A stretch of 64,000 bases of DNA. Origin: Abyssibacter profundi (lineage in GTDB: Bacteria > Pseudomonadota > Gammaproteobacteria > Nevskiales > OUC007). The notes under the pieces were generated by a model, which saw only the letters and a program-made list of their open reading frames with translations, was not told the origin of the DNA and searched no databases. The stretch lies in contig NZ_QEQK01000009.1 of NCBI RefSeq assembly GCF_003151135.1, forward strand, positions 93,302 through 157,301, given 5' to 3'. Within the stretch, counting starts at the first letter, position 1, and every line of letters begins with the position of its first letter. This document shows positions 39,817-55,346 of this stretch, in pieces. Made by a program: the position numbers and the translations under genes.

Positions 39817-40434
39817 ATGCAGGACACCACCGTCTTGCTGGCCTTTGCTGCCAGTTTCTTTTTCATCGCGGCGTCACCCGGCCTTTGCATGACGCTGGCC
39901 ATGTCACTGGGCATTCGCCTGGGCCTGCGGCGTACGCTGTGGATGATGGCGGGCGAGCTGGTCGGTGTGGGTCTGGTGGCGGCTGCGGCCGTGTTGGGTG
40001 TCGGCAGCCTGATACTCGGTGCGCCCGTCGCCTTTGCCCTCTTCAAGATCGCCGGCGCGGCCTATCTGTTCTGGTCGGGTTGGCAGTGCTGGCTCAGCCC
40101 GCCGCCGACGTTGGAGGCAACGGCGGCCACCGGGGACCAGAGCCGGGCTCAGCTGGCGTTGCAGGGGTTTGTCACGGCCGCCTCCAACCCCAAGGCCTGG
40201 GCCTTTAATGCGGCCCTGCTGCCTCCGTTCATCGACCCCGCCCGGGCGCTGGCGCCACAGCTGACCGCCCTGCTGGTCATTCTCCTGTGTATCGAATTCG
40301 TCTGCCTGCTGGCCTACGCGCAGGGCGGGCGCACGCTGGCGCGTTGGCTGACCCGTGGCGGGCACGCCCGCTGGCTCAACCGCGTTTCCGCCGTGCTGAT
40401 GTGGGCCGTCGGTATCTGGCTGCTGGCCAGCTAG
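39817..40434 (+). CDS. LysE/RhtB-family amino acid exporter
   Basis: The 205-residue product has about six TM segments and LysE/RhtB motifs: FFFIAASPGLCMTLAMSLGIRLGLRRT near residue 14 and ASNPKAWAFNAALLPPFI near 122. The family exports amino acids, homoserine or related small molecules. It starts about 20 bp after the DUF4169 gene. The substrate is not known from the sequence. Confidence 0.9.
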   Translation: MQDTTVLLAFAASFFFIAASPGLCMTLAMSLGIRLGLRRTLWMMAGELVGVGLVAAAAVLGVGSLILGAPVAFALFKIAGAAYLFWSGWQCWLSPPPTLEATAATGDQSRAQLALQGFVTAASNPKAWAFNAALLPPFIDPARALAPQLTALLVILLCIEFVCLLAYAQGGRTLARWLTRGGHARWLNRVSAVLMWAVGIWLLAS

Positions 40435-40532
40435 CGCCGCTGTCGTTTCCCCGCCATGCCGCGGGTCGCCTGCAAGCGAGTAGACTTTCACGCCAGATAC
40501 AGCCGTACAGCAGAATACGCAGGGGGACACCG

Positions 40533-41588
40533 GTGAGAACATGGATTGGCCTGGTCGCGCTACTGGGCATGGGGTTGGCATGGGCGCAACCGCCCGCAAC
40601 CCCGGTACAGGTGGACCCCGTCCGGGTGGCCAGCACGGCTGGACAGCTACGGATCGTCGCCCGCGTGGTCGCGCCCGAAGCCGGCGAGATCGCCGCCCGC
40701 ACCGCCGGCACAATTATTCGCTATGCCGTCGATGTCGGCGACACCGTGCGCACCGGGGCGGTGCTGGCCGAACTGGACCGCAAATCGCAGACTTCGACAC
40801 TGGCACTGGCCAAGGCGGATCTCGCCCGGGCTGAGGCGCAGGCCGTCCTCGCCCGGGAACAAATGCAGCGCGTCCAGGCCCTGCGGGGTTCTTCAGCGTT
40901 CTCCGAATCACTGCTGGACCAACGCACGGCCGAGCTGGGCGTGGCCGAAGCCGATGTACAGCTGGCCCGTGTCAATGTGGCTTCCGCACAGACTGACTAC
41001 GACTGGGGCCTGGTCAAGGCGCCGTTTCCCGGTGTCGTCACCGCGCGGCCCAGCAATGTCGGCGCCTGGGTCAACCGCGGCCAGCCCGTGGTCAACCTGG
41101 TCAATCCCGCCGCTTTTGAAATCGAGGCTGACGTACCGGCCAATCGTCTACGCGGACTGGATGCCGGTACGCCGGTGACGGTCGAGCTGGCCGGCGCCTC
41201 GGTACCCGGCCGCATCCGCGCCATCGTGCCGGCCGAGAACCCCGCCACCCGCACGCGCCCGATCCGGGTCACCGCAGAGATCCCAGCGGATCTTGAGGGG
41301 CTGGCCGCGAATGCCTCGGCCCGGGTGCTATTGCCACTGGCCGGCACCTCGGACGCGCTCACCGTCCACAAGGATGCGATCAACCGACGTGGAGACGCCG
41401 CCACCGTCTACGTGGTCGAGGATGGCCAGGCCGCCGTTCGCCCGGTCACGCTCGGCGAAGCGGTGGGCAACCGGCTCGTCGTGCGTGAGGGGCTGGCCGC
41501 CGGAGAACTGGTGGTCATTCGCGGAAACGAGCGCCTACGGCCCGGCCAGGCCGTGCGCTTTGAGCCGCCCGGCGGAGCCGATTCGTGA
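40533..41588 (+). CDS. Efflux RND periplasmic adaptor (membrane fusion protein)
   Basis: This 351-residue protein links an inner-membrane RND pump to an outer-membrane channel. It has a signal peptide (WIGLVALLGMGLAWAQPP), a lipoyl half-motif (GEIAARTAGTIIRYAVDVGDTVRTGAVLAELDRKS), a short coiled coil and a second lipoyl half (VKAPFPGVVTARPSNVGAWV). GTG at 40533 is chosen because it starts the signal peptide and follows an AGGGGGA site; the open frame to 40287 is not used. The stop overlaps the permease GTG by 4 bp. Confidence 0.92.
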   Translation: MRTWIGLVALLGMGLAWAQPPATPVQVDPVRVASTAGQLRIVARVVAPEAGEIAARTAGTIIRYAVDVGDTVRTGAVLAELDRKSQTSTLALAKADLARAEAQAVLAREQMQRVQALRGSSAFSESLLDQRTAELGVAEADVQLARVNVASAQTDYDWGLVKAPFPGVVTARPSNVGAWVNRGQPVVNLVNPAAFEIEADVPANRLRGLDAGTPVTVELAGASVPGRIRAIVPAENPATRTRPIRVTAEIPADLEGLAANASARVLLPLAGTSDALTVHKDAINRRGDAATVYVVEDGQAAVRPVTLGEAVGNRLVVREGLAAGELVVIRGNERLRPGQAVRFEPPGGADS

Positions 41589-44500
41589 ACCTGATTCGCG
41601 GCGCCATCACCCGCCCCATCGCGGTGATTAGCATCGTGCTGATGACCGTCATGTTCGGCGTGCTCGCACTGTCCACCATTCCGGTGCAGCTGGCGCCGGA
41701 TGTGCAGAATCCGGTCATCAATATCCAGACCATCTGGCCAGGCGCCGCGCCTGCCGAGATCGAGCGGGAGATCATCAACCAGCAGGAAGAGGTCCTCGCC
41801 GGTGTCGAAGGCCTGGCGGAGATGACCTCCGCCTCGCGGGATTCGGTCGGCGAGATCACGCTGGAGTTCAATGTCGGCACCGACATGGACAAAGCCCTGC
41901 TGCTCGTGGCCAGCCGATTGGACCGGGTGCCCAGCTATCCGGCCGAAGCGCTCAAGCCCACGCTGCAAACGGCAGGGGCACAGGATAATCCGATCACCTG
42001 GATGTCGCTGCTGCGCACGGGTGACAACAGCCGCCCCATGCACACCTATGGCGATTTCGCCAACGATGTCGTCAAAGAGCGCATCGAGCGCGTGCCGGGC
42101 GTGGGCTTTGTCAATGTTTATGGCGGGACCGAGCGGGAGCTGCAAGTCATCATCGATGCCCAGCGCATGGCCAGTTACGGCATCACCATCGGGCAGATGC
42201 TCAGCACGCTGCGGTCGGCCAATGTCTCGCTGTCGGCCGGCGATATCGAAGAGGGCAAGCGGCGCTACGTCGTGCGGTCCGAGGGTGAACTCAATGACCC
42301 CCAGGCCATTGCCGATGTCCTGCTGCGCAGCGCCCGCGATCCGCTGACTGGCGCCATCGCCCGGGTCACCGTGGGCGATGTCGCCACGCTGGCTTTTGAT
42401 TACACCGAACCCGGCGCCCATATTCGCGATTTCGGCGAATCCACCATTGCCGTCAACGCCGTGCGTGAAACCGGCGCCAACGTGATTCAGGTGATGGCCG
42501 GCATCCGCACCGCCGTGGAAGAGCTCAATGCCGGCCCACTGGCCCGTGAGCAACTCAAGCTCAAGATCAACTACGACGAGACGGTCTACATCACCTCGGC
42601 CATCGAACTGGTGCAGACCAACATCTGGGTCGGTGGCACGCTGGCCGCGCTGATGCTGATGCTGTTCCTGCGGTCGCTGGGTGCAACCGCCATCGTCTCG
42701 GTTGCGATTCCGGTCTCGGTGGTCGGCAGCTTTGTCGCCATGGCGGCGCTGGGCCGCTCGATCAACGTGGTCTCGCTGGCGGGCCTGGCCTTTGCCGTCG
42801 GCATGGTGGTTGATGCCGCCATCGTGGTGCTGGAGAACATCTACCGGCTGCGGCAATCCGGCCTGCCGGTTCGCGAGGCCGCGTACCGCGGGGCCTCCGA
42901 AGTCTGGGGCGCTGTGCTGGTCTCGGCACTGACCACCGTCATGGTGTTCATCCCCATCCTGGTCATGGAACTGGAGGTCGGCCAGCTGTTCCGCGACATT
43001 GCCGTGGCCATTTCGGTGGCGGTGATGCTGTCGCTGCTGGTGGCCGTGACCGTCATCCCGGCCCTTTCCGTCAAGCTGCTGGGTGGCCGGGTGCGGAGCA
43101 CCGCCTCACGTCCACTGCCGGTCGTCGACGCCTTTGCCCGGCGATTCTCAGGCGGGATTCTGGCCTATACACGCTGGGCCATTGCCACACGGGCCCGGGC
43201 GCTGGCCGTGGCAGCACTGATCTGTGGGGTCAGTGGTCTTCTGACCACGCTGCTCATGCCCAAGCTGGAATACCTGCCGGAGGGCAACCGCAACTTCGTG
43301 TTCGGTTTCATCATCCCCCCGCCGGGATACAACCTGGAAACCGTTAACGCCATCGCCTCGTCCATCGAGGATGACCTGCGCCCGCTCTGGGCACCGGTAA
43401 CCGGCCCGGAGCCCACTGAGCAAGGCATTCCGAAACTGGAGTCGTTCTTCTTCGTCACCCTGCGCAATCGGGCATTCCTCGGAGGCCAGGCCACGGAGGA
43501 AACCGAGGCCTACAAGCTGATTGACCCTTTGCGAGGCCCAGCCTTTAAGGAACCCGGCACCTTCGGCTTCGTGCTGCAGCCGTCGATCTTCGGGCGCGGT
43601 GTTGGCGGAGCGCGCTCGGTGGACTTGGACATCACCGGGCCCGACCTCGAAACGATTCTGGGGATCGCACTGCAAGCCGTCGGCCGGCTGAACGAAGCCC
43701 TGCCCTTTGCGCAGGGCAACCAGATGACGCCGCAACCCGGACTGGAGCTGGGCGCCCCCGAAGTCCGCGTTCGCCCTGATCGCACCCGCCTCGCCGATGC
43801 CGGCGTCTCGGCCCAAGAGCTGTCGCTTACGGTCGATGCGTATAACGATGGTATCCGCGTCGCCGAGGTCACCGTCGGCAATGACCGTCTAAACCTGATG
43901 CTCATGGGGCCGGAGGGTGGCATTGAGCAAACCCAGGGCATCGCCTCGCTCCCAGTGATCACCGCAGACGGCACCATTACCACGGTGGGCGAACTGGCAC
44001 GGGTTGAGCTCACGCAGGGCCCCACGGAAATTCGCCATCGCGCACGCGCCCGCACGGTGACGCTACAGGTCCGACCGGCTGCCCAGTACCCGCTGGAGCA
44101 AGCCATGGACATCCTGCGTGATGAAGTCATCGCGCCAATGGCTGAAGCCGGCCTGCCGCCGGGCGTCAACCTGACCCTGTCGGGCACGGCGGATAAGCTG
44201 GACGTCACTTGGAACGCCATGCAGCTGCAATTGCTTGTCGCCCTTGTGATCGTCTATCTGGTCATGGCCATCCTGTTCGAAAGCTTTTTCTACCCGCTTA
44301 TCATCGTGCTATCGGTGCCACTGGCCACCGCGGGGGCCTTCCTGCTGCTGTGGCTGGTCAATGTGGCCATGATGGGCAGCGGCCCCTACGCTGAACTCGG
44401 GCTTTGGGCACGCATGACCGAGGCGGCGACGAACGCGCCGGCGCTGAAGTTCGACATGCTGACGCTATTGGGTTTTGTGATCCTGATCGGCATTGTCGTC

Positions 44501-44824
44501 AACAACGCCATCCTGCTGGTCCACCAGACCCTGCACCACCTGCGCGACGAGGCCATGGCCGTTCGAGACGCCATCCTCACCGCCACCAGCAACCGCATCC
44601 GCCCGATCTTCATGTCCAGCCTGACATCGATTTTCGGCATGCTGCCGCTGGTGCTGTTTCCCGGTGCCGGCTCGGAGCTTTATCGCGGCCTGGGCGTGGT
44701 GGTGCTCGGCGGCTTGAGCCTGTCGTCAGTGCTCACGCTGACCATCATCCCGCCGCTGCTGTCGTTGGCGATTACGGCCAAGGAGTCGGTCATGCCGGCA
44801 GCGGCCGAGTCCGCTAGCGGCTAG
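41585..44824 (+). CDS. Efflux RND transporter permease
   Basis: This 1079-residue RND pump (AcrB/HAE1 relative) has about 12 TM helices and two large periplasmic loops. In TM4 the proton-relay region reads GMVVDAAIVVLENI (D410, then A411 where AcrB has a second Asp), and in TM10 GIVVNNAILLV (N973) where AcrB has K940, so the relay is not AcrB-like. This variant is seen in some RND families. It is coupled to its adaptor by a 4-bp overlap; no TolC-type gene accompanies them. Confidence 0.92.
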   Translation: MNLIRGAITRPIAVISIVLMTVMFGVLALSTIPVQLAPDVQNPVINIQTIWPGAAPAEIEREIINQQEEVLAGVEGLAEMTSASRDSVGEITLEFNVGTDMDKALLLVASRLDRVPSYPAEALKPTLQTAGAQDNPITWMSLLRTGDNSRPMHTYGDFANDVVKERIERVPGVGFVNVYGGTERELQVIIDAQRMASYGITIGQMLSTLRSANVSLSAGDIEEGKRRYVVRSEGELNDPQAIADVLLRSARDPLTGAIARVTVGDVATLAFDYTEPGAHIRDFGESTIAVNAVRETGANVIQVMAGIRTAVEELNAGPLAREQLKLKINYDETVYITSAIELVQTNIWVGGTLAALMLMLFLRSLGATAIVSVAIPVSVVGSFVAMAALGRSINVVSLAGLAFAVGMVVDAAIVVLENIYRLRQSGLPVREAAYRGASEVWGAVLVSALTTVMVFIPILVMELEVGQLFRDIAVAISVAVMLSLLVAVTVIPALSVKLLGGRVRSTASRPLPVVDAFARRFSGGILAYTRWAIATRARALAVAALICGVSGLLTTLLMPKLEYLPEGNRNFVFGFIIPPPGYNLETVNAIASSIEDDLRPLWAPVTGPEPTEQGIPKLESFFFVTLRNRAFLGGQATEETEAYKLIDPLRGPAFKEPGTFGFVLQPSIFGRGVGGARSVDLDITGPDLETILGIALQAVGRLNEALPFAQGNQMTPQPGLELGAPEVRVRPDRTRLADAGVSAQELSLTVDAYNDGIRVAEVTVGNDRLNLMLMGPEGGIEQTQGIASLPVITADGTITTVGELARVELTQGPTEIRHRARARTVTLQVRPAAQYPLEQAMDILRDEVIAPMAEAGLPPGVNLTLSGTADKLDVTWNAMQLQLLVALVIVYLVMAILFESFFYPLIIVLSVPLATAGAFLLLWLVNVAMMGSGPYAELGLWARMTEAATNAPALKFDMLTLLGFVILIGIVVNNAILLVHQTLHHLRDEAMAVRDAILTATSNRIRPIFMSSLTSIFGMLPLVLFPGAGSELYRGLGVVVLGGLSLSSVLTLTIIPPLLSLAITAKESVMPAAAESASG

Positions 44825-44981: not shown

Positions 44982-45794
44982 TCAGCCTGCCCCCGCGCCT
45001 GCAAAGTCCATCACGGCCTGCACAACGCCTTCGTCTCGCAGCAAGCGGGCATGTCCGAGGTCATGCGTCATATAGGCGCGCGCGCCACGCCAGTGGCGAG
45101 TGATCCGTTCTGCACTGGTCGCAGGCACAAGACGGTCATCCACGTCATGAATCGCAAGCAACGGCCGCCCCTCGGCTTTCGCCAGCATCCGAACATCCAC
45201 CGAGGCGATGGGCAGGCGAGTCACCGACTCGATGGTCTGACGCAGTGTTCGCCGGGCGCGATGACCCAACCCAATAAAGGCCGCGAACCTGTCGATGGGC
45301 CCGGCGACCGCATCGGGTGTAGCCACGGTGACCAGTTGTCGCGCATTCAGCCCCTGGTGCACCGCCAACATCGCCGCGATGCCGCCCATGGAGTGGCCAA
45401 TCAGCACATCAGGCGTGCCCAGCTCAGTCGCGGCAACATGCAATGCACGGGCGAACAGCGCGGGATTGGAGTACCGCCCCTCTGCCGTCCCGTGGCCCGG
45501 TGGGTCCACCGTCACGACCGTCCAGCCCGCACGGTGCAACGCCGGGACCAGAGCGGAAAACTGGGTGTAATGGCCCTCCCATCCGGCGATGAGCATGGCC
45601 ATCCGATCTCCACCCTGCCAGACGCGGAGAAAGGCACCATCCGCAGCAAACGCCCTGTCGGGGGGCGCCATCGATTCAGTCCGACTTTGGCGCGCTCTCG
45701 CACCCGGCGTAAAAAAGCGCTGCGCCGCCCAACGACCCGTCACACCTGGGGCCAGCAGACTGCAGGTTCCGATCATCCATTTCATCGCGTTCAT
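44982..45794 (-). CDS. Alpha/beta hydrolase
   Basis: This 270-residue enzyme has the nucleophile elbow GHSMGGIAAM, the oxyanion region VDPPGHGTAEGR, an acidic residue in DVDDRLVP and a likely catalytic histidine in HDLGHARLL, typical of carboxylesterase/lipase or serine hydrolase proteins. It has a hydrophobic N-terminal stretch. It is the last gene of the minus-strand run led by tetR and the RND exporter, 10 bp after the OM barrel gene. Confidence 0.88.
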   Translation of the reverse strand: MNAMKWMIGTCSLLAPGVTGRWAAQRFFTPGARARQSRTESMAPPDRAFAADGAFLRVWQGGDRMAMLIAGWEGHYTQFSALVPALHRAGWTVVTVDPPGHGTAEGRYSNPALFARALHVAATELGTPDVLIGHSMGGIAAMLAVHQGLNARQLVTVATPDAVAGPIDRFAAFIGLGHRARRTLRQTIESVTRLPIASVDVRMLAKAEGRPLLAIHDVDDRLVPATSAERITRHWRGARAYMTHDLGHARLLRDEGVVQAVMDFAGAGAG

Positions 45795-45803
45795 TCAAAG
45801 TAC

Positions 45804-47108
45804 CTAGAATCCATACTCGACCCCGACGACCAGCCGGTCACGGTGGTCGAACTGGCCGTAGCGACCGTCTTCATTGCCGTAGAACACGTCCGCTTCGAAG
45901 CGGACAATCAGATTCGCGCGATAGTCGAAACTAATCGCAGGTGAAAGAAGACCATCACCTCGATCAATATCGTGGATCAGCAGCCCGCCAACCTTGAGCA
46001 CGTCGTTCATGAACCGGCGTTCCAGTAATAGGGTCACGTCCGTCTCAACGCTGCGACGTCGCGCCGCCGATCGCCCCCGGTCGAACCAGCTTTGAAAGAA
46101 CTGGGCAGAGACCAGCGTGTCTCGCAGACCCATCCAATCCACACCCACCACATACGCCAGCTCACCGCCACGGACGACGCCATCGACGCTGCTTGCGGGG
46201 TGACCGAAAACGTAGCGATCCGTGGTGTAGCCCATCTCTGTTCTCAGAGTGAAGTCACCAAAGGCATTGGAGGCCGTAGCGCCGACGGTCTGCGTCCGCT
46301 CATACGCTGTCTGGATCCGTACGCCGTTCTCAGTTCGCAGCACCCGCACCACCGGCTGGTCTGCGTAATGAAACAGGTAGTTGAACGTGACATCCCAGCC
46401 GCTGAATCGAGCCGACCACTGCGTCCCGACATCCGCATCTCGCAACGGTCGATCCGGTTTGTCGAACTGCCGACCTAGGACCACGTCATCCGCAGCGAGC
46501 GTTGGCCGAAATTCCGACGCCTCAAAGGCGTACACGCCCTCCTCGCTAGGAAGTTCGTGATAGGTCTGGTCGAGAATCAGCAGCCACTGGGCCAACCAGC
46601 GGTCACCGACCGGGACCTCCCACTTCACGCTCCACAGAGGAATCCTGGAATCTTCGAAGTCGTCCAGAATGAATTCCCGAAAGCTCTGCGGGTTTACACG
46701 ATCCAAGACTTTCAGCCCATCGGATTGTCCCCACACAACCTGCTGCTTACCCAGACGCAGATAATGGTCGCCCCAATAGGCCTCGGCGTAGAGTTCACGG
46801 AGTTCTGCCTCTGCATCATCGCCGGCGAGCATTCGGCGGTTCCACGCGCCCACCGTGCGTTGCTCCGGGCGCTGAGGCTCCAATCGATCCACCGCATCAG
46901 CGCGCAGCCGACCCACCGCGGTCCAATCGATGCCCCACGGTGAGCGCCAATCCAAAACGGGAAGCACCGTCAGCTCGCTTTTCTGTGTACGGCCATCGCC
47001 TGTCTCGACGGCATGGGCGACATCCACGATGCCACCGACCCGTAGACTGGCCTGGACGGGTGTCACGACCGATAACGCCAACACCCACACACCGGCTCGA
47101 GCGCTCAT
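45804..47108 (-). CDS. DUF1302-like outer-membrane beta-barrel protein
   Basis: The 434-residue product has a signal peptide (GVWVLALSVVTPVQA) and alternating beta-strand pattern with many aromatic girdle residues, ending in Phe (LVVGVEYGF), the hallmark of outer-membrane barrels. The motif YLRLGKQQVVWGQSDGLKVLDRVNP matches DUF1302-type porins. Its ATG overlaps the stop of the upstream exporter gene by 4 bp, so the two are coupled. It is a candidate outer-membrane exit or acceptor for the exporter; this role is inferred from context. Confidence 0.85.
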   Translation of the reverse strand: MSARAGVWVLALSVVTPVQASLRVGGIVDVAHAVETGDGRTQKSELTVLPVLDWRSPWGIDWTAVGRLRADAVDRLEPQRPEQRTVGAWNRRMLAGDDAEAELRELYAEAYWGDHYLRLGKQQVVWGQSDGLKVLDRVNPQSFREFILDDFEDSRIPLWSVKWEVPVGDRWLAQWLLILDQTYHELPSEEGVYAFEASEFRPTLAADDVVLGRQFDKPDRPLRDADVGTQWSARFSGWDVTFNYLFHYADQPVVRVLRTENGVRIQTAYERTQTVGATASNAFGDFTLRTEMGYTTDRYVFGHPASSVDGVVRGGELAYVVGVDWMGLRDTLVSAQFFQSWFDRGRSAARRRSVETDVTLLLERRFMNDVLKVGGLLIHDIDRGDGLLSPAISFDYRANLIVRFEADVFYGNEDGRYGQFDHRDRLVVGVEYGF

Positions 47109-50100
47109 GGCCGATACCCGCGCCGCAGCGAACGCTCTTCGAATACCCCATCATCCAGTTCCAGGTCGTAAATCACGTCACTGACGATCAGCTCTGTTTG
47201 ATGACCTGTTTTGTGGTTCTCGACCCGAATGTTGTGAACCGTCCAAATTCCGTCGACCTGTCGTAATGCATCGAACCAGGCCGTCTTGAGCAGATTGCCC
47301 TGGGTGTCCCAATTGTCAGATTTGCGAATCGTGTGGGTCTCGGAGTCGACGTACCAGCGCGCGCGGGCGTAGCCCAATTCTTCAGCAACCGCCTGGCTGA
47401 CGGGCACACCCTCCACGACATGGACGTCAACACGACCGATGCGGTCCATGCCCGCATGGCTGAAGCGCCAATCGTCCAGGCTGACCTTGTTCTGACGCTT
47501 CAGGTCCTCGTAGGTCAGGTCTGTCCCCAGGAAATAATCCCCGCGATCAGACGCTGAAATGCGTCGGGTTTTACGCAAAGCGGGCAGGTACAGCCACTGG
47601 TCATCCTCGCGGTCGGGGCTCGCGTAATCGTGGGTCAGGAACGCGGTATCGCGCACATTTGTTGGTTCCAGGTAGTACAGAACCTGCCGCTTGTCCTCAC
47701 CGTAGTACTTACGCAGCGACACGGTCTGCTGCTCCCGTGTCCGGCCGCGCCGGTCGGTCAGCTTCAGCGTGATATGGGATCTCAGAGTCTGACCTTCGGG
47801 ACGTTGATCGACGCCGGCCATGATCTGGTCTGCATCCTGGGCGCTGGATTGCGTACTCACCCCCACCAAGCCGACGCCCACCAGCAGCCAGGGCAAGAGC
47901 AGATTGGCCACCGAGACCGGCTTCGACGAGTCCGCCCGGTTGGCGCCGAACAAGGCTTTAGGCTTGAGCACACTGATCAGCGCCGGCATGGCCGTCAGAC
48001 TGATGACAAAGCTGGTGGTCACGGCAATCGCAACCAGCAGGCCGAAATCCTGCAGCGGCGGCACTTTGGACGTCATCAACACGCCGAACCCCAATGCCAA
48101 AGCCAGCAAGTTGAATAACAAGGCCCGACCCGTTGTTGTGAACAGCGCGACAACGGCATCGGCGTAATCGAGGCGCTCATCACGAATCAAGCTGCGAAGC
48201 CGGTCCAGGCTGTGAATTGCGAAGTCCACCCCCAAGCCAATGGCAATGGCAGCGAACATCGAGGTCCCGACGCCGATCCAGATGCCCGTGTACCCCATCA
48301 CCGCAAACACCATCAGCACCGCGAAAGCCACCGGCAAGGTTGCCAGCACACCCAGCACGACGGAGCGGAAGAAGACAACCGAAGCCAGCAGAACCAACCC
48401 CAGCGCCAGTGCCATACCCTGCGCCGTGTTGGAGCCCAGTGGAGCCATCCACGAGTAGCTCAGATCCAATGCACCTGTGGAAACCCCCTGAATGGCCTCG
48501 TTGTTGAATGTATCGGCCAAGTAGGATTTGAGCCCCAACACCACCGGCTCGATTTGCCGGAAGTTGTCGCTTTGCAACTGACCACGGACGTGCGCCAGCC
48601 GGTAGTCGTAATCCACAACTTCCTCAAAATCGGTGGGCTCACCCGATGCCGTGTAAAGCAGAAAATACTGTGCGATGAGGAAGGGATCGTCGGGCAGCGC
48701 GTAGAACGCGGAGTCATCGGCATTCACCGACTGGTGCATCTCCTTGATGTAATCGACGATGGAGGTGGTATTTGCGAACCCGCCCTCGGCTTGCATCCAG
48801 GCCTGAAGCGCTTCGATGCGCGCCAGATTGTCAGGTAGGAACAGATCTTCCGGATTGGGCGTGGTAATCGCCACGTCCAGGTAATAGGTCCCATCCAATC
48901 GTTGATTAATCTCCGTATCCGCGACCCGGAGTGGCTCGCTGACCTCAAAGGCATGTATCCGTTGATCGTTGAACTCCACCCGGCTGACCCCGATCAGCGC
49001 CAGGACGAACAAGCCGGTCACGATCCACAACGTGGTTGCTGGCGCCGAGGCGACTGCCCGCCCAGCCAACTCCATCAGCCGCGTGAACGCATCCGGCCGC
49101 CCGGTGGACCGAGGTTTCAGCGCACCGGATGGCTTGGGTGAAAGAAGCGACAGCAAGGCCGGCAGCAAGGTGAGGGTCCATAGCCAAGCTGCGGCGATCC
49201 CGATCGCGGCAAAGACCCCATAGGACTGCATCGGGGGTAACCCTGCCGCAGCGGCTAGCCCCATAAACCCCGCTACGGTTGTCAGCGTTGTCAACGTCAC
49301 CGGGCGCCACATGACCGCCATCGCCCGAGCGACCGCCTCCCGCCCTTGCAGCTTCGGATTGTTGGCGACTTCCTCGTAGTACTGACTGAAGATATGAATG
49401 GAATCGCAAACCGCGATGCCGATTAGAATCACTGGCAACGAGTTCGTGATGACATACATGGGCACCCCTGCCGCAGCCATCGACCCAAGCCCAACCGCCG
49501 CCGTCCCCACCACGATGAGGTTCGGCAGCAACGCTCCGGCCAGGGTGCGATAGGCAATGATCAACACGATGGTGATCAGAATTGCCGCGATCGGGTTCAG
49601 GCGGCTGGCGTCTGCATCAATGTAGGCAGACAAGTATCCGGAGACCGCCCCCTGACCCGCGACATGCAGGCTGGCACCCGCCGGGACGAGACCTTCCCGA
49701 TCCGCCTGCTCCGTCAGGTTGAGCAGTTTGAAGTAGATAGCCTCGGCATCCTGCTCGCTCAGCAGCTCTGCGATGATCAAAGTCGCGCTGCCATCCCGGG
49801 CCACCAGGGTGCCGTTCAGCAACGGAAAGCCCTGCACCTGGCTTGCAATGGCGTCGGCCTGCGCCTGAGTCTCTGGAATCGCCTCCCAGAACGGCTCAAC
49901 CAGCATCCCATCAGCCGTACCGACAATATTGTTCTCGGTCGCCAGGCTGGTCACCCGGTCGGGATCGACACCTTCAATCGTTCTGACTTGATCGGTCAGC
50001 CACTGCAACAACGCTATATTGCCCGGGGTGTACACCCCGTACCGTCCGTCATCCACGATGGCGATCACCATGGGATCTTTCAGGCCGAACACGTCTTCAA

Positions 50101-50305
50101 CGTGGTCACGGAACGCCAATGCCGGACTGGCATCCGGGACAAAGGCTTCTGGCGTCGTGTCTTTGGTGAGCTTGCCCAGCTGGCTACCCATCAACCCGAT
50201 CGCCCCGAGGGCGGCCGCAATGATCAGCCAGCGGAACTGCAGCAGCCGAAGGAAAAACCGTTCAGCGCCGACCGCCGTGGGCGGCATTTTGCGTCTATTA
50301 CTCAT
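47105..50305 (-). CDS. MMPL/RND exporter fused to a LolA-like periplasmic domain
   Basis: This 1066-residue protein is a natural fusion. Residues 1-790 form an MMPL/RND transporter with two six-helix bundles, including the TM4-type GIAVCDSIHIFSQYYEE and TM10-type GLGVDFAIHSLDRL charged residues. A 13th hydrophobic segment (residues ~799-820) resembles a retained signal peptide. Residues ~825-1066 match LolA-like outer-membrane lipoprotein-sorting proteins (YYLEPTNVRDTAFLTHDY, WLYLPALRKTRRISASDR). The topology puts the LolA-like part in the periplasm. Downstream, the OM barrel overlaps it by 4 bp. Confidence 0.9.
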   Translation of the reverse strand: MSNRRKMPPTAVGAERFFLRLLQFRWLIIAAALGAIGLMGSQLGKLTKDTTPEAFVPDASPALAFRDHVEDVFGLKDPMVIAIVDDGRYGVYTPGNIALLQWLTDQVRTIEGVDPDRVTSLATENNIVGTADGMLVEPFWEAIPETQAQADAIASQVQGFPLLNGTLVARDGSATLIIAELLSEQDAEAIYFKLLNLTEQADREGLVPAGASLHVAGQGAVSGYLSAYIDADASRLNPIAAILITIVLIIAYRTLAGALLPNLIVVGTAAVGLGSMAAAGVPMYVITNSLPVILIGIAVCDSIHIFSQYYEEVANNPKLQGREAVARAMAVMWRPVTLTTLTTVAGFMGLAAAAGLPPMQSYGVFAAIGIAAAWLWTLTLLPALLSLLSPKPSGALKPRSTGRPDAFTRLMELAGRAVASAPATTLWIVTGLFVLALIGVSRVEFNDQRIHAFEVSEPLRVADTEINQRLDGTYYLDVAITTPNPEDLFLPDNLARIEALQAWMQAEGGFANTTSIVDYIKEMHQSVNADDSAFYALPDDPFLIAQYFLLYTASGEPTDFEEVVDYDYRLAHVRGQLQSDNFRQIEPVVLGLKSYLADTFNNEAIQGVSTGALDLSYSWMAPLGSNTAQGMALALGLVLLASVVFFRSVVLGVLATLPVAFAVLMVFAVMGYTGIWIGVGTSMFAAIAIGLGVDFAIHSLDRLRSLIRDERLDYADAVVALFTTTGRALLFNLLALALGFGVLMTSKVPPLQDFGLLVAIAVTTSFVISLTAMPALISVLKPKALFGANRADSSKPVSVANLLLPWLLVGVGLVGVSTQSSAQDADQIMAGVDQRPEGQTLRSHITLKLTDRRGRTREQQTVSLRKYYGEDKRQVLYYLEPTNVRDTAFLTHDYASPDREDDQWLYLPALRKTRRISASDRGDYFLGTDLTYEDLKRQNKVSLDDWRFSHAGMDRIGRVDVHVVEGVPVSQAVAEELGYARARWYVDSETHTIRKSDNWDTQGNLLKTAWFDALRQVDGIWTVHNIRVENHKTGHQTELIVSDVIYDLELDDGVFEERSLRRGYRP

Positions 50306-50348: not shown

Positions 50349-50954
50349 TCACGGCGTCATCACGTCCAAGGTATTGCGGCAGAACCGGGAAAAAACCGCC
50401 GCTCCGGACTCCTCTGGTTCCAGCCGCGCCCGAGAGCTCACCAGCGCGCCTTGAACCGCGGATGCAAACCACTCGGCCGCTGCCCAATCCGTCATCTTGG
50501 CGGGCACAGCCACACTGCCGTCATCGCGACCCAAGGCCATCGAATCTGACAAGAACGCAACCTGCACACGCATGGTGGCCCGCGCCGCGGCGCGAACCGT
50601 TTCAGGCAAGTGTCCCCACCCGCCGGCGAACGCGCCGGCCGGGCACAGCACCTCGCCCGCACCCAAGCGCTCCAGGTACAGATCGAAGCAATACGCGTTC
50701 AGCCGCTGCATGCCGGTTAAGGCCGACTTCGACTGCACCCATGCGCGCACGCCCTCGCGTGCCCGGTCGAGCATTGCAACTGCCAAGGCTTCCTTCGATT
50801 CGAAGTGGTGGTAAACACTGGCTTTACGGATACCCACCTGCTCCGCCAAGTCCCGGTAACTAAACCCATCATAGGATTGCGACTGTACGAGTTGTTCAGC
50901 CGCATCCAGGATGTCTTCGCGCGTGTTTCCACGAGATGTGCGAGGTCTATTCAT
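50349..50954 (-). CDS. TetR/AcrR family transcriptional regulator
   Basis: The 201-residue regulator has an N-terminal helix-turn-helix (FSYRDLAEQVGIRKASVYHHFESKEALA, ~30-58) and a variable ligand-binding C-terminal domain. It sits 43 bp before the exporter gene on the same strand. A palindrome lies just ahead of its own ATG and another ahead of the exporter, consistent with autoregulation and control of the whole module. The ligand is unknown. Confidence 0.9.
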   Translation of the reverse strand: MNRPRTSRGNTREDILDAAEQLVQSQSYDGFSYRDLAEQVGIRKASVYHHFESKEALAVAMLDRAREGVRAWVQSKSALTGMQRLNAYCFDLYLERLGAGEVLCPAGAFAGGWGHLPETVRAAARATMRVQVAFLSDSMALGRDDGSVAVPAKMTDWAAAEWFASAVQGALVSSRARLEPEESGAAVFSRFCRNTLDVMTP

Positions 50955-52643: not shown

Positions 52644-53969
52644 TCAGTGCCCGGCCCGATCGTACGCGCCGCTATCGCAGCGCCGTGGGCGTATGCGATC
52701 ACGTTGGTCGTTGGCCGGGCAACGGTCTGCGATGCCGTTGCCCAGCGCGGGGCTCCCGGCCAGCAGTGAATAGGTCGGGGTGTGCCCGCCATGGTCGGCC
52801 AGCGCGCCCAACATCGGGTCGGTATCGGGCAAGTCGTTGGCGTTATCGAGAAAGCAGGAATCGTCGTCGGACACATTGCCCCCGAATGAATAAATGCGGG
52901 AAATGGTCTGCTTGCAGTTGGCCGCGCCCCGGGTCGAGCTATTGCCCGCAATAATCGTGTTGATCAACTCCACCGGACGCCCGATGACTTCGTCGTCCTG
53001 TCCATTGAGCAGACCACCCGGGTCGCCCTGGTAAGACGTGGCGATGTTGATGCCGCCGCCACCGATGACGGCGTGATTATTGACGATGGTGGAGTTAATG
53101 ATGGTGACGGGACCACCGCCCCGCGCGTCGATTCCCCCGCCTTCGCCCTGGGTGCCGCCATCGCCGGTGCTGTCGGTGCAACAAGACTCCAGAATCCGAT
53201 TGCCGGTAATGGTCGAGTTGATGACCAGGCCGGCGGCATCGAAGCGAATGCCCCCACCCTCGCTCTCCGCAACATTGTTGCTAATCGTGCTGGATTCGAT
53301 GATCGCGGAGCTGCTGGGCGTGTTGAAAATGCCGCCACCGTACCCGGCGAAGTTTTCCGTGATCAGACAGCGCTGCACGATGAGTTGGCCCTGATTGAAG
53401 ATCCCGCTGGCGGTGCCACCCCGGATGGTGACATCTGCCACTGTCAGGACCGCATTCGGGCCCACGCCGAATACGCGATCGATCCCATTGCCATCGATCA
53501 CCGTGTGCCCGGCGCCAGCACCCCGGATATTGGTCGAGCCCAGCACCGACAGCATGCCGGCGTCCGACGTCCCTTCGGCCACGACGGTCGGCACCAGCGG
53601 CGGATCGATAAAGCGGTAGTGCCCCGGCGGGAGGATGATGACGTTGGTCCGGGTTAATGGATTGGTGCTGAACAGAATCGTCGCGTTGGATTCCTGAACG
53701 GCGGCGCGCAGACTGCAGACCCCCTCGGCCGTCGCGCAGCGGCCATCACCCGGCATGGCATCAGGCTGATCCGACTCGCTATTGACGACGAATGTCCCCG
53801 GAGAGGCCGGGCTGTAGGGTGTCCGGTCCGGCTCGCTGGCGCTGGCCGGGCCGTCGCCTGTGTCGGCACCCTGGCTACCGGTGGCGTTGCAGCCGTGCAT
53901 CAGCAGGGCCGCGACTCCGAGCAGGAGCAGGCGCGTTGTCCGATGCACGATGAGCTGTGTGTTGTTCAT
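52644..53969 (-). CDS. Choice-of-anchor Q beta-helix lipoprotein (copy 1)
   Basis: This 441-residue exported protein has a signal peptide with a possible lipobox (LLMHGC, C27) and the CSLRAAVQESNA motif typical of choice-of-anchor Q proteins. The body repeats beta-helix turns such as IINSTIVNNHAVIGGGGINI and ends with DTDPMLGALADHGGHTPTYSLLAGSPALGNG. The right-handed beta-helix fold is used by surface adhesins and polysaccharide-active proteins. It lies 12 bp after its paralogue and may be a duplicate. Function unknown. Confidence 0.85.
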   Translation of the reverse strand: MNNTQLIVHRTTRLLLLGVAALLMHGCNATGSQGADTGDGPASASEPDRTPYSPASPGTFVVNSESDQPDAMPGDGRCATAEGVCSLRAAVQESNATILFSTNPLTRTNVIILPPGHYRFIDPPLVPTVVAEGTSDAGMLSVLGSTNIRGAGAGHTVIDGNGIDRVFGVGPNAVLTVADVTIRGGTASGIFNQGQLIVQRCLITENFAGYGGGIFNTPSSSAIIESSTISNNVAESEGGGIRFDAAGLVINSTITGNRILESCCTDSTGDGGTQGEGGGIDARGGGPVTIINSTIVNNHAVIGGGGINIATSYQGDPGGLLNGQDDEVIGRPVELINTIIAGNSSTRGAANCKQTISRIYSFGGNVSDDDSCFLDNANDLPDTDPMLGALADHGGHTPTYSLLAGSPALGNGIADRCPANDQRDRIRPRRCDSGAYDRAGH

Positions 53970-53981
53970 GGTTGGCCGCTC

Positions 53982-55346
53982 CTATTCCGTTGCCTCGAAG
54001 GCACCGATGTCACAGCCAAAATCGGCGTCACGCGCCACGCCGCGCTGATCGCGAAGCGTGCAGGTCGCCGGGTTGCCGGCGCCTCGCGCGGGGCTTGCGG
54101 GCATGAGAGCCAAGGTGTCGGTTGGCCCGCCATGGTTGGCGAGTTCGCCCAACATGGGCTCCAGAGCGACCAGATCGCCGGCCTGATCAAGGCCGCAACT
54201 GCCGTCGGAATCCAGGTTGTGCCCCTGGGACAGAATGCGGGACAGGCCCACGGTGGCCAGGCAATCACCCTGCGCCACCTCAGCCACGTTGTGGGCGATG
54301 ATCGTGTTTTCGAGAATGACGTCGAAATGAGGAACCGCAAGCGCACCGGTCACCGGGTCGGGGAGCGCATCGACATAGGCTGTATCGAAATGCAGCCCTG
54401 CACCGCCATCGTGGGCCTCGTTAAAGGCAATGGTGGAATTGCGGATGACGGTGCCGATGCCGCGGATATCCACCCCACCTCCCTGAGCGAAGGTGAACGG
54501 CACCCCCGTCCCCATGAGCACGGGATCCGCCAGGCCCAGGGCTTTGTTATGGCTAATGGTCGAGTTGGTGATCGTGCCGCGGGTGTCGATGCGGATTCCG
54601 CCAGCCTGTCCCTTGGCAATATTGTGGCTGACCGTGCTGTCGTTCAGCGTCAGGCTGCCCATGGGGTTAACGAAAATTCCACCGCCACCGCTCGACTGGT
54701 TGCCATAGATATGGACGCGCTCAAGCACGAGATGCGCCTGGGCGTAGATCCCGCCGCCCATGGTATTGCCGGCTCCGCCGGTGATGCTCAAATCGGTCAG
54801 ACGGCTGTCGGCGCCACGCGACAGCTCGAAAACCCGGTCGAGCTGCTGCCCGTCGATCAAGGTTTCGCGCGCACCGGCGCCGTGAATGCTCATCGGTGCC
54901 GCAATATTCAGTGAGCCGGTGGCGTCGCTGGCGACAATCGGCCGGGCCAGCACATCACCCAACCCGACATCTCCAGTCGATAAGGCATTCGGCAGGCTGA
55001 GCGCATAAACGCCCGGCGGGAGCAGAATCGTATGCGGCTCGCCAGTGGCATTCACGACGCTCGCACTGGCCTCCATGATGGCCGCACGCAAGCTGCAAAC
55101 GCCCTCGGCCGAGGCACAAACACCATCACCGGGGTTCGCGTCCACTTGGTCCAGTTCGCTGTCGACCCGCAAGGCATGCTCGAAGGCATCGTCCGCTGCA
55201 CTCACCGGCTGGCCGGCCGCGGTACCTGGCTGTCCCGTGCCGCCACATCCAGCGAGCCCAATGGCCAGCAGCGCCGTACAGATCGGCTGCAACACCCGTT
55301 CAGCACCCAGCGAGTCCGTGACACGCCGCTCCGTTCCGTGATTCAT
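53982..55346 (-). CDS. Choice-of-anchor Q beta-helix lipoprotein (copy 2)
   Basis: A paralogue of the downstream gene: 454 residues with a clear lipobox (GLAGC, C34), VCASAEGVCSLRAAIMEASAS, beta-helix segments (ITGGAGNTMGGGIYAQAHLV, SGGGGIFVNPMGSL) and the C-terminal ATCTLRDQRGVARD...CDIGAFEATE that is typical of the family end. It is the first gene of the pair and divergent from a TetR gene, with two palindromes in the shared promoter region. Confidence 0.86.
   Translation of the reverse strand: MNHGTERRVTDSLGAERVLQPICTALLAIGLAGCGGTGQPGTAAGQPVSAADDAFEHALRVDSELDQVDANPGDGVCASAEGVCSLRAAIMEASASVVNATGEPHTILLPPGVYALSLPNALSTGDVGLGDVLARPIVASDATGSLNIAAPMSIHGAGARETLIDGQQLDRVFELSRGADSRLTDLSITGGAGNTMGGGIYAQAHLVLERVHIYGNQSSGGGGIFVNPMGSLTLNDSTVSHNIAKGQAGGIRIDTRGTITNSTISHNKALGLADPVLMGTGVPFTFAQGGGVDIRGIGTVIRNSTIAFNEAHDGGAGLHFDTAYVDALPDPVTGALAVPHFDVILENTIIAHNVAEVAQGDCLATVGLSRILSQGHNLDSDGSCGLDQAGDLVALEPMLGELANHGGPTDTLALMPASPARGAGNPATCTLRDQRGVARDADFGCDIGAFEATE

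Follow-up and report, generated by a model that had tools for sequence, protein, structure and literature searches.

A 64,000-nucleotide stretch of the Abyssibacter profundi genome (RefSeq assembly GCF_003151135.1, contig NZ_QEQK01000009.1, positions 93,302 to 157,301; hereafter the window) carries at window positions 47105-50305, on the minus strand, a gene that is a fusion of both genes of an RND exporter plus LolA-like carrier operon. The open reading frame runs from ATG to stop over 1066 codons with no interruption. With modest confidence, we favor a reading of the sequence in which the one polypeptide contains an internal signal peptide that is likely cut by signal peptidase I, and in which lipid-like cargo would pass from pump to carrier to an outer-membrane barrel. 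The fusion architecture is already published for TOL_3187 of Thalassolituus oleivorans MIL-1 (PMC6304351) and is also present in the acinetin-505 operon of Acinetobacter; what this analysis adds is a strict cleavage motif at the joint of every fusion that we found.

Signal peptide features of the linker

The joint in the window reads GANRADSSKPVSVANLLLPWLLVGVGLVGVSTQSSA followed by QDAD. Ahead of the carrier, this linker shows n-h-c organization and a signal peptidase I motif, with R790 and K795 in the n-region, a hydrophobic stretch at residues 800-816, and the c-region STQSSA, which ends in SSA822 immediately before Q823. Eight further fused proteins were found, at identities from 64-68% down to 25%, so that nine distinct fusions could be compared, and each of the nine linkers is basic, then hydrophobic, then closes in a strict [AVS]-x-Ala motif that leads directly into the mature carrier. 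The nine motifs are SSA, SVA, VQA, ARA, SHA, AHA, VEA, AAA, and AQA. As a control, the strict motif was found within the same distance of 196 of 733 RND transmembrane segments (27%; Fisher p 8e-6), and it is present in 59 of 86 leaders of separately encoded carriers (69%). In hydrophobicity, the nine linkers are like the separate-carrier leaders (p 0.62), whereas RND helices exceed the linkers (p 0.003).

Conservation within the fusion is lowest in the linker, yet the alanine at position -1 is kept. Among the three closest fusions the linker is 18-36% identical, versus 48-69% in the flanking domains, and Ala822 is the sole invariant linker column in an alignment of seven fusions (A1). Such a pattern is to be expected of a signal peptide that is functional and under selection. 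In the full-length AlphaFold2 model, residues 789-822 are unordered, with a predicted local distance difference test score (pLDDT) below 50. The first-pass annotation, a model's reading of the letters, had found that the linker looks like a former signal peptide; the comparison agrees that it derives from one.

The two fused domains

The exporter part is recognized by Pfam MMPL (PF03176) in two stretches at 1e-32 (113.8 bits, against a cut-off of 20.5). It is related to the NCBIfam HAE3 model TIGR00921 (3.4e-61) yet falls outside that narrow model, with 207 bits under the curated cut-off of 351.9. The full-length AlphaFold2 model (mean pLDDT 91.5, predicted template modeling score 0.86) contains 12 RND transmembrane helices ending near residue 780, with large periplasmic loops at about 45-218, after transmembrane helix (TM) 1, and at 441-611, after TM7. 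Foldseek places the exporter model closest to MmpL5, MmpL4, and MmpL3 (E ∼1e-24). The putative proton-relay residues are Asp301 (TM4) and Asp694 (TM10); Asp694 is invariant in all nine fusions, and position 301 is Asp in five and His in four distant ones. HpnN and the MmpL proteins, exporters of the same kind, move lipids and other hydrophobes.

The C-terminal domain is LolA-like, as the first-pass annotation had held. It matches Pfam LolA_like (PF17131) at residues 871-1062 with an E value of 2.7e-50; the match scores 171 bits, where the cut-off is 30, and spans positions 2-184 of the 184 in the profile. Over residues 825-1063 the domain matches by sequence the solved LolA-superfamily structures 9tp6, 3bk5, and 4z48. 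The LolA-like domain begins at residue 825 in the full-length model. Modeled alone, the carrier reaches a pLDDT of 93. The closest structure to this model is LolA3 of Porphyromonas gingivalis (9tp6), with a Z score of 32.4; 4z48 and 3bk5 follow with 30.7 and 29.5, and true LolA and LolB with 11-17. Within the LolA superfamily, the PF17131 proteins make up a branch of their own, and PF03548, the profile of canonical LolA, is absent from the Pfam hits of the fusion protein. The domain layout given by the first-pass annotation stands with small shifts at its boundaries, as the RND core stops at about 786 rather than 790 and the carrier starts at 823-825.

Other fusions and two-gene relatives

The closest fusions, each a full one, are those of Microbulbifer mangrovi (L039, 67% identity), of genome G044 (64%), and of a metagenome-assembled proteobacterium (L040, 49%). 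The remaining five are distant, at 25-27% identity, and come from G395, G146, G597, G562, and an Acinetobacter baumannii record (L080). A DUF1302 barrel is encoded after the fusion in the window, in Microbulbifer, in G044, and in G395, and also in G597, where it scores below the Pfam cut-off; L010 likewise has MMPL and LolA-like domains in one frame with an outer-membrane barrel gene next, as do the window and L039. G044 has in addition, on a 5285-base contig (G044:C2; L090, L077), a second copy of the RND-LolA fusion that is diverged and apparently broken, with exporter and carrier in separate frames.

Exporter and carrier are adjacent genes in G005, G259, G237, G252, G111, and L041, in keeping with the first-pass annotation's statement that other genomes often have the two parts as separate neighbors; most relatives are of this kind. 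In these relatives, the two genes often share a frame with one stop between them, or overlap, and the carrier starts with an ordinary signal peptide. The nearest of them, G005 (53% identity), separates RND from carrier by a TAA in the same frame, and the signal peptide comes next. Programmed stop readthrough was considered for several relatives with one TAA inside the genome-search match and rejected, as these are ordinary two-gene pairs in the same frame. The A. profundi genome itself also encodes a two-gene RND and LolA_like pair on another contig (G000:C10:156013-159046; L092).

The carrier domains of the nine fusions are scattered among two-gene forms in a tree of 98 such domains. Their placement requires that the state change six times, and well-supported branches force at least four of these changes. 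The tree was built by a quick method and leaves several forks open. The number of fusion events is for this reason an estimate, and some of the changes could be fissions. Repeated fusion would be the simplest reading of it.

Proposed mechanism

In the mechanism that we propose, the single polypeptide would begin with an MMPL/HAE3 exporter of 12 helices, driven by protons, and continue through an internal signal peptide into a carrier of the LolA fold. Because the C-terminus of the exporter is expected in the cytoplasm, the internal signal peptide would reinsert in the N-in/C-out orientation, and the carrier would thereby reach the periplasm. The most likely next step is a cut by signal peptidase I behind Ala822, which would leave pump and carrier as separate proteins made 1:1 at the same place. 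We infer that the pump lifts a lipid-like small molecule from the inner membrane, that the greasy groove of the carrier takes up this cargo, and that the carrier passes it to the DUF1302 barrel encoded directly downstream. The presence of a hydrolase and a TetR regulator in the same cassette suggests a regulated compound as the cargo.

Processing of this sort is found in FbcH of Bradyrhizobium, a cytochrome b/c1 polyprotein in which a multi-helix membrane protein and a periplasmic protein are joined by an internal signal peptide that is cut; the proteins are unrelated to the fusion, and the processing alone is comparable. The pairing of an RND lipid exporter with a LolA/B-fold carrier is seen in MmpL7-LppX, which, unlike the fusion, is mycobacterial, is encoded by separate genes, and has a lipoprotein, LppX, as its carrier.

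For the group as a whole, we see an even chance that RND-carrier fusions arose repeatedly and act as secretory polyproteins, with an internal signal peptide that selection keeps cuttable and that is then cut. Were this true, those databases and papers that treat the fusions as one tethered transporter would be mistaken. Cleavage of the joint, or its absence, separates a free shuttle from a tethered hand-over and bears directly on how the Acinetobacter and Thalassolituus homologues are read. The fusion also supports, as evidence of an independent kind, the view that an RND pump, a LolA-like carrier, and a DUF1302 barrel form one export line, a system that is widespread and has almost no known substrates. 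In the literature searched, of which coverage was partial, we found neither the conserved cleavage motif across fusions nor the polyprotein reading, and searches worded for an MMPL-LolA fusion, or for internal signal peptides in bacteria, returned nothing direct.

Alternative explanations

Several observations weigh against cleavage. When sites were scored with a cleavage-site matrix that we built, the linker region came out on top in six of the nine fusions; in one it took third place, and in the other two it was not among the four best. The matrix scores of fusions also overlap those of RND-only controls, so that the matrix favors a signal peptide in six or seven of the nine without deciding the matter. 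The window linker has a 19-residue mean hydrophobicity of 1.98, within the 1.54-2.66 of the protein's own helices, and contains a 28-residue uncharged run, so that it could be an uncut helix; moreover, the nine fusions are not independent of one another. For these reasons, we retain as a tentative, less probable alternative a linker that escapes cleavage and serves as a 13th transmembrane helix, which would hold the carrier by the periplasmic exit of the pump and allow cargo to be handed over within one chain. The orientation would be correct, and permanent joining is the simplest use of a fusion. This permanent helix was the proposal of the first-pass annotation, and the window linker is indeed hydrophobic enough for it, but the strict motif at the right spot in all nine linkers makes it doubtful; in addition, the linkers of L040, L080, and L102 have a length or a hydrophobicity that is low for a helix lying stably in the membrane, and AlphaFold2 models no helix there, a weak point given the thin alignment in that region. 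Because every fused linker keeps the motif before the mature domain, release of the carrier by cleavage appears at least as likely as a permanent tether. It is unlikely that the carrier is also made separately by internal initiation from a start codon just before the linker signal peptide. Such a start is plausible from the sequence in two other fusions, L010 and L084, where the linker is preceded by an in-frame ATG that has a Shine-Dalgarno-like sequence (duplex energies of -6.0 and -7.1 kcal/mol; the median for separate carrier genes is -6.9 kcal/mol). The window, however, offers no good candidate: ahead of the hydrophobic stretch it has only GTG or TTG codons, whose upstream pairing is weak (-3.9 for the GTG at residue 799). 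In the six other fusions, no ATG precedes the hydrophobic stretch of the signal.

The first-pass annotation also called the carrier a lipoprotein-sorting domain. In a genuine sorting machine, the RND part would release lipoproteins to the LolA part in the manner of LolCDE. The PF17131 family name and the LolA fold would fit this, but we consider it quite improbable. Lipoprotein sorting is here a family name and is not supported as the function of this carrier: the genome's only PF03548 hit is a separate gene for canonical LolA (G000:C8), and LolA3, the nearest relative with a solved structure, is without the LolA arginine and does not pair with LolB (PMC13103446). Characterized MMPL/HAE3 pumps, moreover, move lipids or hydrophobes, and the A. 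baumannii homologue sits in a lipopeptide operon. A sequencing or assembly error that joins two genes might be imagined, since a single in-frame stop is what sets the nearest two-gene relative apart, but it is ruled out by the 67%, 64%, and 49% identical fusions in independent assemblies, with flanking synteny. The intact frame, the Pfam matches, and these homologues confirm the first-pass annotation's view of a natural fusion.

Comparison with known systems

The T. oleivorans fusion TOL_3187, reported in 2018, resembles the window gene by its published description and has a predicted porin at the next locus, TOL_3188; the fusion gene is induced 42-fold on the n-C28 alkane, and the authors propose that the fusion protein exports the porin (PMC6304351). 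The A. baumannii protein (L080) likewise has RND and LolA_like domains in one chain, with a linker ending in SHA before DE, and is followed by a porin-like barrel that is 26% identical to the window barrel by BLASTP and that a Pfam profile search did not call DUF1302. It differs in its low identity (26%), in an extra N-terminal polyketide-cyclase-like PF10604 domain that makes it a three-part protein (L080:3377-7027), and in the surrounding nonribosomal peptide synthetase operon for the lipopeptide acinetin-505, which the window lacks. The genes after it encode 424, 621, and 255 amino acids, with domains as described for A1S_0117, A1S_0118, and A1S_0119, which have 424 (porin-like), 621, and 254 amino acids (PMC5376624). 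From gene order and length, we infer that the fusion gene corresponds to A1S_0116. The papers on this operon, in their available portions, name the fused protein only as an RND transporter (PMC5376624, PMC7997844).

AmeABCD of Castellaniella defragrans combines an HAE3 RND protein with a LolA-superfamily (DUF1329) periplasmic protein and a DUF1302 barrel, and its deletion lowers monoterpene tolerance; AmeD is an exporter of the same kind that moves hydrophobes (PMC6394551). In contrast to the window, its genes are separate with no fusion, the periplasmic protein is DUF1329 rather than PF17131, and there is an additional protein, AmeC (PMC6394551). The G005-type two-gene operons are nearer, with the same two proteins in the same order and then a DUF1302 barrel; they differ in that the carrier gene is separate and has an N-terminal signal peptide.

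Gene cassette and surroundings

The fusion lies in a cassette with the order TetR, fusion, DUF1302 barrel, alpha/beta hydrolase (Table 1). The TetR gene is 43 bases upstream of the fusion gene, the barrel start codon shares 4 bases with the fusion stop codon, and the hydrolase gene begins 9 bases past the barrel. The outer-membrane barrel that the first-pass annotation placed downstream is this DUF1302 gene, which adjoins the fusion directly. The entire order is kept in Microbulbifer, where TetR is 52%, the barrel 57%, and the hydrolase 40% identical to the window counterparts.

Table 1. Parts of the fusion gene and its cassette (window coordinates)
Feature	Coordinates	Strand	Residues	Basis or remark
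MMPL/HAE3-type RND exporter part	47948..50305	-	1-786	Pfam MMPL, Foldseek, AlphaFold2 helices
Linker	47840..47947	-	787-822	Possible signal peptidase I site between SSA822 and Q823, or 13th transmembrane helix
LolA-like periplasmic carrier domain, PF17131	47105..47839	-	823-1066	Pfam, PDB sequence matches, domain model
DUF1302 outer-membrane barrel, 434 amino acids, own signal peptide	45804..47108	-		Pfam PF06980 2.7e-14
Alpha/beta hydrolase, last gene of the cassette	44982..45794	-		Pfam Abhydrolase_1 4.2e-11
TetR-family regulator	50349..50954	-		Pfam TetR_N 3.5e-14

Elsewhere, the A. profundi genome (G000) encodes nine full-length DUF1302 barrels besides the short one of the fusion cassette, and several of them lie near LolA_like or DUF1329-type hits. 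Convergent with the cassette, on the opposite strand, window positions 40287-44824 (+) encode an HlyD-type adaptor and an AcrB-type HAE1 pump. On the minus strand, 52644-53969 and 53982-55346 encode two neighbors whose N-termini resemble those of lipoproteins and which show features of a right-handed beta-helix; the pair is an apparent tandem duplication with a common CSLRAA motif, and Pfam calls Beta_helix only for the second.
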